Of a stretch of DNA of 34,598 bases, positions 5,575-9,211 are shown one piece after another. Below the pieces are notes generated by a model. That model had not been told where the DNA came from and did not search any database. It was given only the letters and a program-made list of their open reading frames with translations. The stretch lies in the NCBI GenBank assembly GCA_023380305.1, contig JAMCQZ010000004.1, positions 1 through 34,598 of the forward strand, read 5' to 3'. The position numbers were made by a program, and so were the translations under genes. The stretch is from Patescibacteria group bacterium (lineage in GTDB: Bacteria > Patescibacteriota > Minisyncoccia > UBA6257 > Colwellbacteraceae). Positions within the stretch are counted from its first letter, which is position 1. The number at the start of each line of letters is the position of its first letter.

Positions 5575-5718
5575 ATGAATCTGTCAACCGGAAAAACAAG
5601 GATTTTCCTCGTTGTTATCGGGCTCCTGACCCTTATTCTGGTTTTCGGTTTAGGCTATTTATCAGGCCAGAGCTTCTGCCGGAATCCGATAATAATAGAA
5701 CAGAAGGGGTGTGGATAA
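5575..5718 (+). CDS. 47-aa single-TM small membrane protein candidate
   Basis: Hand translation [47 protein letters not shown]; below ORF-track cutoff; divergent from rpmA with AT-rich promoter-like sequence between. Confidence 0.5.
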
Positions 5719-5757
5719 GGTAATTGACAAAGCCTGGCGGTACTTCATCATTGAGAT

Positions 5758-7752
5758 ATGACACATTTATCAAGTAGAAAGACTTTTCTATTGGTATTGT
5801 GGTTGACGGCTCTCTTCGCGACTGGAGAGCTTTTTTGTACTCATAGGGTTGAAGCCGCGGATAATTATGCACAAACGATTGTTTTAAATCCAGGCTGGAA
5901 TATTGTTTCCACTCCGAGGCTTTTAAGCAGTCATGTCTTTTCTGTCGATGCGATAAGCCAAAACTTTGATATTTATACCTTGAATCCAACCGATCCTTCA
6001 GGGTGGTCGACAATGGCCGGGATTAATCAAGTAGAGTTCAAACCGTTGTTTGGGTATTTTATTAATAATAAAACCGGTGTCAATCAAACATTAATTTTTA
6101 ATTACCAACAGGGCCTTAACCCAAATCAACGATTATTTCAAAGGAACTTTAATACGATCGGTTGGTATTCAATTGGCGCAGCGCAACCAACCTATACAAA
6201 AATTAAATGCGCAAATACCACCGATACTAATAATGTCTCTAAAATATTAACTTCAATCAAAGATGCTTATAGTCAATTGATTGATTTTACTAATGAAGAT
6301 TATGACATTAATAATCAGACTAGCGTTAATTCAGCTCGTATCGGCGATTCGTGGAAGGCGGTCATTGCTGACGACGCCGATGATATGAACGACTTACGAG
6401 AATTAAAAGGATATGCTGTATATATTAATAAGTCTTCTTCTTTTATTGGAACGCAAAATATTGATCCAGTAGTCGATGAATGTGTTGAGCTTGATTTAAC
6501 GCCACCGATTATTACATTAAGCGGGCCTTCGACTATTAATCTTAATGCCGGTGAAAACTATATCGAGTTAGGCGCTACAGCTATGGATAATATCGATGGC
6601 GATGTCGCGGTAACAATAAATGGCAATATCGATACTTCTGTGTCAGGAACACAATATGTGTTATATAACGCTGTTGATGCCGCCGGAAATCATGCTATAC
6701 AAGCAACACGGATGGTTATTATCCATACTACGCCTGATTTTCTGTCTTCATCGGATAGCACTTTGACCCCGATCGATCAGAACGTTATCGGCCCGGTTTC
6801 TCAAGTGGTCCTTGGCTACTTGAAGATTACCGCCCAGAACGAGGATCAGGATCTTCGCAGATTGCTTTTGAGCTCCACCGCGACTGTGGCCGCCGACTTG
6901 AGGACCGTCGCTTCGAGCGTTGCCCTTTACGATGGCAACACCCAGGTGACCAACTTCAATGCTCCGCTGGCTGCTGGTGGAACTTGTATCACCGCTGCTG
7001 ATGAGGCTGCTGGTGATGTCTGCTTCGCTGCGACTGATGTCTTGACCCCGACTACCTTCAGCTTGAACACGCCGAAGACTTTGAAGGTTGTTGCTAACCT
7101 TTTGACTCCGGCTGCTGAAGATATAACCGAATATTTATTTATTCGACCAGGTAAATTAGAGTTGCTTGGTAAGACCTCTGGTGTTGTCGCTTCGAACGGC
7201 GCTTTGATTGATCTTCGCACGACCACTTCTTTGGGCACCGGCGGTACCTATACCGTCCGCTCGAACGTTGTGGAAGTCGTGAAGGACGCGACCTCTCCTT
7301 CGGGAAGTGTCCGCGGCACCTTCGTCAATCACGGCATCTGGCAGTTCACCGCTAACGGCACTGCTGCGACCTTGGATATCGGCCGTTTGATCTTTACCTC
7401 CCGCGTCGGCTTGCCGAACGTGGCTGGTAATGCTGCGACTGCCGCTATGTTCAGGTTGTACAATGTGACCACCGGCGCGGTTATCACTCCGGTAACGATC
7501 ACTGTTAACAACGCCGCCGGCACCGTAACCTTTGATGGCATTCCTTCCGGTCAGCTTCAGTTGACCCGCGGTATCGCCCAGAAGGTCGCCTTGCAGGTGA
7601 CTACCACTTCGACCGCTGTCTGGCCGATCAACACCCAGCTTCAGTGGAGCTTGACTACTCGAGATTCAATAGATGTAACAAGTGGTGGCGCTGGCTATGG
7701 CGCGACCACCTGGTCGTTCCCGGCTGACGCGAACACTGTCACTCTTCCATAA
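5758..7752 (+). CDS. Secreted surface protein: signal peptide, N-terminal domain, DUF5011/Ig-like domain, S-layer-like C-terminal region
   Basis: Signal peptide (FLLVLWLTALFATGELFCTHRVEAADNY); PPIITLSGPSTINLNAGENYIELGATAMDNIDGDVAVTINGNIDTSVSGTQYVLYNAVDAAGNHA resembles DUF5011; C-terminal Thr/Val/Ala-rich beta-type sequence. Confidence 0.75.
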   Translation: MTHLSSRKTFLLVLWLTALFATGELFCTHRVEAADNYAQTIVLNPGWNIVSTPRLLSSHVFSVDAISQNFDIYTLNPTDPSGWSTMAGINQVEFKPLFGYFINNKTGVNQTLIFNYQQGLNPNQRLFQRNFNTIGWYSIGAAQPTYTKIKCANTTDTNNVSKILTSIKDAYSQLIDFTNEDYDINNQTSVNSARIGDSWKAVIADDADDMNDLRELKGYAVYINKSSSFIGTQNIDPVVDECVELDLTPPIITLSGPSTINLNAGENYIELGATAMDNIDGDVAVTINGNIDTSVSGTQYVLYNAVDAAGNHAIQATRMVIIHTTPDFLSSSDSTLTPIDQNVIGPVSQVVLGYLKITAQNEDQDLRRLLLSSTATVAADLRTVASSVALYDGNTQVTNFNAPLAAGGTCITAADEAAGDVCFAATDVLTPTTFSLNTPKTLKVVANLLTPAAEDITEYLFIRPGKLELLGKTSGVVASNGALIDLRTTTSLGTGGTYTVRSNVVEVVKDATSPSGSVRGTFVNHGIWQFTANGTAATLDIGRLIFTSRVGLPNVAGNAATAAMFRLYNVTTGAVITPVTITVNNAAGTVTFDGIPSGQLQLTRGIAQKVALQVTTTSTAVWPINTQLQWSLTTRDSIDVTSGGAGYGATTWSFPADANTVTLP

Positions 7753-8424
7753 ATGCGTCTCTTTAATACTTCATTAAAGCTCTTAATGGTAGTTTCTTAC
7801 TTTTTGAGCCATGCTAGTATGGCTCAAGCCACAATGTTTCCGGACTTTCCAATGGCTTTTTGGGGTAGTGTGACTATTGATGGTGTGGCGGCGCCAGCGG
7901 GGACTATAGTTCGCGCTTATTATGGTAATGTTTTAGCCGGGGAAATCATTCTTAAAGAGAGCGGCATTTATGGTTATGCTGATTCTATAAAACAGAAAAT
8001 GCTTGTGAAATCAGGAAGTGGACAAATTACTTTTAAATTAAAACCCATCTCCGGGTTAGAGACAGAGGGATTAGTACTGATTATTTATCCGCAATTTACA
8101 AGCGGATTGACGGTTAATAAATCATTAAGTTTTATCACTCAATCTCAAGCAGCCAATAATATAAATAATACTGGTGGCGGAGGAGGTGGCGGGGGAAGCT
8201 TGTCAAATAGTTTCGAATCCTCGGCGAATAACGCGACAGATAATACCAATTTATCTTATTCAAAAGGAGACGCTAATCATGATGGTAAGATTGATCTTCT
8301 CGATTTCAATACATTAATGGTGAATTGGAATCAAACAGAGGTTAATAACAACGCTGATTTTAATAATGATGGCAAGGTCGACATCTTTGACTTTAATTTA
8401 TTAATGATTAATTGGACAAAATAA
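7753..8424 (+). CDS. Secreted protein with C-terminal dockerin type I-like Ca-binding repeats
   Basis: Start abuts previous stop (TAAATG); N-terminal hydrophobic signal; Gly linker NTGGGGGGGGS; two DxNxDGxIxxxD loops: GDANHDGKIDLLDFNTLMVNW and ADFNNDGKVDIFDFNLLMINW. Confidence 0.8.
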   Translation: MRLFNTSLKLLMVVSYFLSHASMAQATMFPDFPMAFWGSVTIDGVAAPAGTIVRAYYGNVLAGEIILKESGIYGYADSIKQKMLVKSGSGQITFKLKPISGLETEGLVLIIYPQFTSGLTVNKSLSFITQSQAANNINNTGGGGGGGGSLSNSFESSANNATDNTNLSYSKGDANHDGKIDLLDFNTLMVNWNQTEVNNNADFNNDGKVDIFDFNLLMINWTK

Positions 8425-8425
8425 A

Positions 8426-9172
8426 ATGAAGAAACAATATTATTTCACCTTTCTATTAATAATCGTGATAGTAGCTTGTCATAATCAAGCACAAGCAGCT
8501 ACTATAAAACTTGATCCGGAAAACAAAACATTGATAGAAGGCCAGTCTTTCCAGGTGGATATTAATATTTTCCCCGGAGAAAGCCGGGTTTATACCGTAA
8601 AAGCTGTAATCGATTATCCTGCCGAGTATTTAAGGTTAACGTCTTTTAACTTCGTTGATCAGTGGCTGCCATTAGCTCAATCGGACTATAGCGTCATAGA
8701 TAATGTGAACGGGCGCTTAATTAAGACCGCTGGCTATCCTGGTGGCATAAATAGTATTACTAAATTAGGGACAGCCATCTTCGTACCCCAGAAAATAGGA
8801 GGGGCCAAAGTTTCAACGGCCGCAGATTCGGCGATATTAGATAACAATAATCGTAATATATTCGATAATATTGCCGCGCAAGCAAGTTTTAAACTTGTTG
8901 CCGCTTTACAACCAGATCTTCAAATACCAGTTAAAACTTCAGAACTTCCTTTCGAGGAAGAAACGTTGTTGCCGAGCCCGGAAATTATCAAGCCGATTAA
9001 GCCCAATGTCTTATTACTTGCTATGGCCTTTGTTTTATTACCATTCAATCCCATTTTCTTCTTAGCGATAGCTTTTGCCGCACTTGCTGGAGCTTTTACG
9101 TTTCATAAAACGCGACGTGATATAGCGGTTCATTTTAATGTAAAAGATAAAATACGGTTATTAAGAAAATGA
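8426..9172 (+). CDS. Membrane-anchored cohesin-like domain protein
   Basis: Signal peptide; IKLDPENKTLIEGQSFQVDINIFPGESRVYTVKAVIDYPAEYLRLTSF...GTAIFVPQKIGGAKVSTAADSAILDNNNRNIFD resembles the cohesin fold; C-terminal TM segment(s) and basic tail HKTRRDIAVHFNVKDKIRLLRK. Confidence 0.7.
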   Translation: MKKQYYFTFLLIIVIVACHNQAQAATIKLDPENKTLIEGQSFQVDINIFPGESRVYTVKAVIDYPAEYLRLTSFNFVDQWLPLAQSDYSVIDNVNGRLIKTAGYPGGINSITKLGTAIFVPQKIGGAKVSTAADSAILDNNNRNIFDNIAAQASFKLVAALQPDLQIPVKTSELPFEEETLLPSPEIIKPIKPNVLLLAMAFVLLPFNPIFFLAIAFAALAGAFTFHKTRRDIAVHFNVKDKIRLLRK

Positions 9173-9211
9173 TTAAAGCTTCTATAGAGCATAGCATTTA
9201 GATGCGGAGGT

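Follow-up and report, generated by a model that had tools for sequence, protein, structure and literature searches.

Two neighbouring genes of a Patescibacteria group bacterium appear to encode the two halves of a surface mount: a secreted protein that ends in a dockerin and a membrane-anchored protein with a cohesin fold. We consider it likely (probability about 0.78) that these two proteins (genes 2 and 3) form a non-cellulosomal membrane anchor and its cargo, and we infer that the one docks onto the other. The window, which is the whole stretch of 34,598 nucleotides analysed here, is one entire contig of a genome of 544 kb that is 97% complete. An earlier note on this DNA had proposed that the cohesin anchors the neighbouring dockerin protein within a module of three genes. 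The cohesin fold and the conserved gene pair support the anchoring, but the unit is the pair and not the triad. The three adjacent open reading frames on the + strand were found as described (Table 1), and their junctions are indeed TAAATG between genes 1 and 2 and TAAaATG between genes 2 and 3.

Table 1. Features of the cassette and its surroundings, in window positions.
Feature	Position	Strand	Remarks
Inserted segment, missing at the exact point in two same-genus relatives	5691..9210		3.5 kb
Gene 1, secreted mosaic surface protein	5758..7752	+	664 aa
Gene 1 N-terminal half (signal peptide, GWNIVSTP-type domain, most of PF16403)	5758..6708	+	low GC
PF16403 Bact_surface_Ig-like domain	6511..6723	+	E 8.2e-14, 51.8 bits, cut-off 27
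Gene 1 C-terminal half, partial copy of the host's own S-layer-like protein	6709..7749	+	GC 0.545
Gene 2, secreted dockerin protein	7753..8424	+	223 aa
Gene 2 N-terminal beta domain (FPDFPMAFWG...)	7840..8142	+	AF2 pLDDT about 83-88 at aa 31-70, lower beyond
Dockerin_1 domain, two Ca-type loops	8263..8406	+	PF00404 32 bits (genome search), 29.8 bits (protein scan)
Gene 3, membrane-anchored cohesin-fold protein	8426..9172	+	248 aa
Cohesin-fold ectodomain	8498..8905	+	AF2 pLDDT 82-97 in blocks, aa 31-160; PDB fold matches
C-terminal membrane helix, then short basic tail	9038..9103	+	AF2 helix 209-247, hydrophobic sequence

Gene 3 had been described as a protein with a signal peptide, a C-terminal transmembrane segment and a cohesin-like ectodomain. 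This description holds, the ectodomain being a beta-sandwich that is a cohesin by fold. The AlphaFold2 (AF2) model, for which gene 3 was aligned to 12 relatives (A3), has a pLDDT above 90 across most of residues 31-160. When this model was compared with the PDB by Foldseek, the first 26 matches were all cohesins or cohesin-like modules, the best being 2vo8 (TMt 0.81) and 6kgc (E 2.4e-9). By sequence, gene 3 gave no Pfam (PF00963) or NCBIfam cohesin match, and a PDB sequence search with a five-sequence gene 3 profile returned no cohesin, just a weak phage tail match. The comparison of structures was thus needed. The relative of gene 3 in genome G022 scores 23.0 against PF00963, under the cut-off of 24.1. 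Aligned by hhalign to the Pfam-level cohesin encoded at C8 in the same genome (PF00963, 25.3 bits), gene 3 reaches a probability of 96.5% with E 8.7e-10, in an alignment that is partly signal peptide. As it lies below the Pfam cut-off, gene 3 was filed as a divergent cohesin-fold relative and not as a member of PF00963. Conservation is higher in the 8-3-6-5 sheet, the dockerin-binding one of cohesins (strands numbered by order), than in the opposite sheet (p 0.046), an effect of strands 5 and 6. The signal peptide contains IVAC (window 8468-8479), a possible lipobox that is absent from the relatives and through which gene 3 might be lipid-anchored.

The dockerin claimed for gene 2 is also confirmed. 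The protein has a signal peptide, a linker of eight Gly residues and a C-terminal Dockerin_1 domain (PF00404, 29.8 bits against a Pfam curated cut-off of 22.9) with two full DxNxDGxxxxxD loops. These Ca loops, DANHDGKIDLLD and DFNNDGKVDIFD, have D or N at positions 1, 3 and 5 and D at position 12, and most columns of the Ca-loop residues are invariant among relatives (alignment A4). The two halves of the dockerin are near-symmetrical, with 13/20 residues identical by manual count, so that two binding orientations may be possible. The AlphaFold2 model of gene 2 as a whole is of low confidence (pLDDT 67.7). The fold matches of its N-terminal domain are weak; the best is a chain with an X-module and a dockerin (E 8e-4), and the others are usher C-terminal and carboxypeptidase transthyretin-like domains. 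Given the low-confidence model, we take this fold as a lead.

The two genes keep company well beyond the window. Twelve relatives of gene 3 were retrieved by the gene 3 motif alone, with no dockerin used. These nearest relatives in named records all come from genomes of uncultivated bacteria, 9/12 of them labelled as Patescibacteria groups; the labels include Jorgensenbacteria, Liptonbacteria, Nomurabacteria, Wolfebacteria, Berkelbacteria and Paceibacterota. A dockerin is immediately upstream of, or fused to, the gene 3 relative in 10/12. The fused case is a membrane-anchored polypeptide of 582 aa that carries both dockerin and cohesin (L120 6897-8645, in the L095 record); it could bind to itself or link into chains. 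Orphan relatives of gene 3, with no dockerin nearby, are also present (L117 7998-8750 and L121 7953-8702). Within the genus, family and order (61 genomes), 20/29 dockerin places have a cohesin on the same strand within 3 kb, all 20 of them downstream, where 0.12 are expected; no cohesin was detected within 3 kb of the other nine. Across 241 genomes of the phylum, 86 have a dockerin, 73 a cohesin and 50 both (Fisher p 8e-12). Among the 146 dockerin places listed phylum-wide, a same-strand cohesin lies within 3 kb downstream in 37 and upstream in 3, and none lies on the opposite strand; chance would give 0.31 each way for an assumed genome size of 1 Mb, and as the genomes are related, these and the preceding pairing counts are not independent events. 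No cohesin was detected within 3 kb at 106 of the 146 places. Dockerins with no detected cohesin are in part due to contig ends and to divergent cohesins that Pfam misses, though not necessarily all. The triad envisaged earlier is not conserved as such; the conserved unit is the dockerin-cohesin pair.

The two partners also vary together. We compared the distance matrices of dockerins and cohesins from 25 neighbour pairs, which comprise class A (the C8 type), class B (found with other membrane surface genes) and class C (the window type). The matrices are correlated (r 0.71, p 5e-5), also when shuffles are confined to classes (p 4e-4); inside a single class the co-variation stays modest, with r 0.47 (p 0.04) for class C and r 0.37 (p 0.07) for class B. 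As species history might drive such a correlation, partners were swapped inside genomes. In four genomes with two pairs each, the true pairing gave the highest r of 16 arrangements, beating all 15 swaps, and each between-class swap lowered r. On blind clustering the dockerin and cohesin groupings mismatch at two or three groups and agree at four (adjusted Rand 0.87); the mismatch arises from single outliers that split off, and the matrix correlation is therefore the fairer test. Together, the co-variation and the swap test support matched partners. Co-variation of neighbours can also come from shared transfer without contact, and as the pairs were selected by adjacency, it is silent on the binding of a dockerin to a distant cohesin. 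A helix motif, DFNxLMxxW, is common to the class C dockerins. The dockerins of L118 and L119 read DFVxLMANW, and their neighbouring cohesins have YA, not the usual YT, at residues 56-57 (two cases only).

It is conceivable that the adjacent dockerin and cohesin never bind each other, the dockerin being the Ca-stabilised end of an adhesin and the cohesin-fold protein a receptor for something else. The orphan cohesins of L117 and L121 and the many dockerins with no neighbouring cohesin would agree with this, but the directional adjacency is far beyond chance, the co-variation depends on the correct pairing, and the fusion in L120 joins both domains naturally. We regard this explanation as unlikely.

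The host genome encodes another pair. At C8:26-32 kb, a frame of 1366 aa encodes a long protein with repeats and a terminal dockerin, and a membrane-anchored Pfam cohesin follows it. This anchor has a cytosolic helix, and after it come a single response regulator, PAS genes and a histidine kinase (L004 15-9850, C8:22000-36000). The order is repeated in G001, G002, G013, G017 and G049, with the signalling domains checked by Pfam in G001 and G013, and pairs of the C8 type may possibly signal from the surface to the cytosol. With the window pair, the host cell thus has two pairs of different class.

Type I dockerins and the cohesin fold are parts of cellulosomes, and expressed cohesin and dockerin genes of the CPR Shapirobacterales were interpreted as a cellulosome (PMC9123182). 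The window pair could accordingly be read as a small cellulosome whose cohesin recruits enzymes with dockerins to degrade polysaccharides, the more so as a scaffoldin-like array with glycosidase-dockerin proteins exists in some Patescibacteria. The host genome, however, has two dockerin proteins only, no catalytic domain exceeds the cut-off in either of them, and Pfam gives one cohesin in one other host protein and no multi-cohesin scaffoldin. With single cohesins only and no dockerin enzymes in the assembled 97% of the genome, a cellulosome at the window locus is largely refuted, and we hold it to be very improbable. The scaffoldin-like array itself (L139, G127:C27, 236-17359) is a run of dockerin proteins, several of which also carry apiosidase/GH5-like and CBM6 domains, and adjoins a protein of 939 aa with two cohesins and one dockerin. 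From its domains it looks like a true small cellulosome in a Patescibacterium. Similar matches in G153, of the same family as G127, make misbinning of this array less likely.

The cargo of the class C pairs varies. The dockerin protein of L111, beside a gene-3-type cohesin, combines a Peptidase_S8 domain (55.6 bits) with PF16403 and a dockerin. The reported lack of a catalytic domain therefore holds within the cassette, where Pfam finds none, and fails elsewhere, as this cargo is a subtilase. The neighbourhood in L111 would suit an anchored protease or processing system whose ancestral cargo was enzymatic and of which gene 2 is a derived form. We think this quite improbable, as Pfam scans of six dockerin proteins of class C (those of the window, L110, L111, L113, L114 and L118) gave a catalytic domain in L111 alone, L118 is Ig-like, and the proteins of L113 and L119 are scarcely more than a linker and a dockerin. 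The latter two (L113 7570-7995 and L119 7527-7922) contain little else but a signal peptide and might act as adaptors that bring no cargo themselves. In L116 (8010-9014), the class C cohesin protein also has a PG_binding_1 domain, and is predicted to combine membrane and cell-wall anchoring.

Gene 1 is a different matter. It was claimed to be a secreted DUF5011-type protein, and it has a signal peptide and a match to PF16403 (E 8e-14), which we take to be the family formerly named DUF5011. The further label of S-layer-like applies, in a limited sense, to the C-terminal half only, as the copy of another secreted peptidoglycan-binding surface protein. Along 923 b, its DNA matches the gene for a 1156-aa PG_binding_1 protein at C8 with 81% identity, and at the protein level the half is 76% identical to this secreted host protein. 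The front half has a GC of 0.379 and a GC3 of 0.32, and aa 7-238 are 48% identical to a sequence in G042:C21. From the contrast in GC and the DNA match to the host's own gene, gene 1 is a mosaic whose front looks foreign and whose back is native. The 1156-aa protein (L134 3641-7111) has repeated domains and relatives in the family; it is a candidate both for the main coat protein and for the donor of the gene 1 C-terminal half. A PF16403 protein accompanies the pair only in the window and in L114, and is fused within the dockerin protein in L111. By this distribution, gene 1 would be an optional companion of the pair, outside the conserved core.

The whole cassette lies in an inserted segment. 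The gene order S41 protease-L9-L27-PDDEXK is kept in relatives, and the window segment sits between L27 and PDDEXK. DNA homology to G001 and G002 ends at 5690 and restarts at 9211/9212; at the same break points G001 holds only about 18-20 b, and G002 holds a different gene. The GC of gene 2, gene 3 and the front half of gene 1 is 0.375-0.387, against 0.50 in the flanks. The break points 5690 and 9211 (L158 4608-5475), beside a small membrane ORF, have three contents in three congeneric genomes and are an insertion hotspot. No tRNA is present at the insertion point. Relatives of gene 3 were not detected in plasmids or viral contigs, and no carrier element was thus identified. The presence and absence of the cassette are observed directly; its horizontal gain into a variable insertion point we infer, together with the direction and source.

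On the anchor-and-cargo reading, gene 3, to judge from its sequence and model, would be secreted but retained in the membrane through its C-terminal helix, the cohesin domain facing outward. Gene 2 would also be exported, and its Ca-loaded dockerin would dock onto this cohesin. This would keep the N-terminal domain of gene 2 at the cell surface with no sortase, where it may contact a host cell or the cell's own envelope. A Pfam search found no sortase in the host genome, which fits the need for another kind of anchor. Gene 1, a presumed member of the same transcription unit, is likely to be built into the S-layer-like coat of the cell by way of the copied C-terminal half, although this step is the weaker one. 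A far more tentative extension is that insulated cohesin-dockerin pairs, in several classes, serve the Patescibacteria as sortase-free surface-display cassettes that are exchangeable and move horizontally, in which the swapped cargo sets the contacts of the cell and the anchor of one class reports to the adjacent two-component system.

Cohesin-dockerin pairs outside cellulosomes have been described. AfuCoh76 and AfuDoc75 of Archaeoglobus fulgidus (Voronov-Goldman 2011) are a strong non-cellulosomal pair according to PMC9705933, and have served to attach proteins to E. coli. Their gene numbers suggest that they are neighbours, as in the window. That pair is archaeal and a single case, whereas the kind seen here is widespread in one bacterial phylum, has a membrane-anchored cohesin and comes in pairs of different sequence class within one genome. 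A surface-held cohesin that receives a dockerin protein, as we propose, is also known from OlpA and OlpC of Clostridium thermocellum and ScaE of Ruminococcus flavefaciens, and cellulosomal anchoring cohesins share the fold of gene 3 (3ul4, 4dh2 and 2zf9 are among its PDB matches). Those proteins serve cellulosomes with dockerin enzymes, whereas here there is a membrane helix and one non-catalytic partner encoded next door. SEML1_0315 of Southlakia epibionticum is an essential envelope protein with a dockerin domain (PMC10633639). Like gene 2, it is a dockerin protein, and it sits at the surface of an epibiotic Patescibacterium; PMC10633639 names no cohesin partner. In the ultra-small Omnitrophota, giant proteins are rich in dockerins, which were read as possible adhesins (PMC10066038); nine dockerins occur in one such protein and no paired cohesin gene is described, in contrast to the gene pair of the window. 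In the open-access literature we found cohesin and dockerin genes of the CPR mentioned only in passing, and no text that describes their pairing as anchor and cargo. Provisionally, the interaction is of a known kind and the arrangement is new: a dedicated membrane anchor with a neighbouring cargo gene, in several classes per genome. This arrangement has apparently moved horizontally.

The recurrence of this socket-and-plug gene pair suggests a general way for the phylum to mount surface proteins. It bears on how the host-dependent Patescibacteria, with their tiny genomes, fix and change what they display. It also serves as a warning that cohesin and dockerin matches in these genomes do not by default mean a cellulosome. 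The pairs would offer new binding partners that, by prediction, probably do not cross-react. With a recognisable pair of anchor and cargo, surface cargo could be listed straight from genomes, and the pairs are testable with recombinant proteins.
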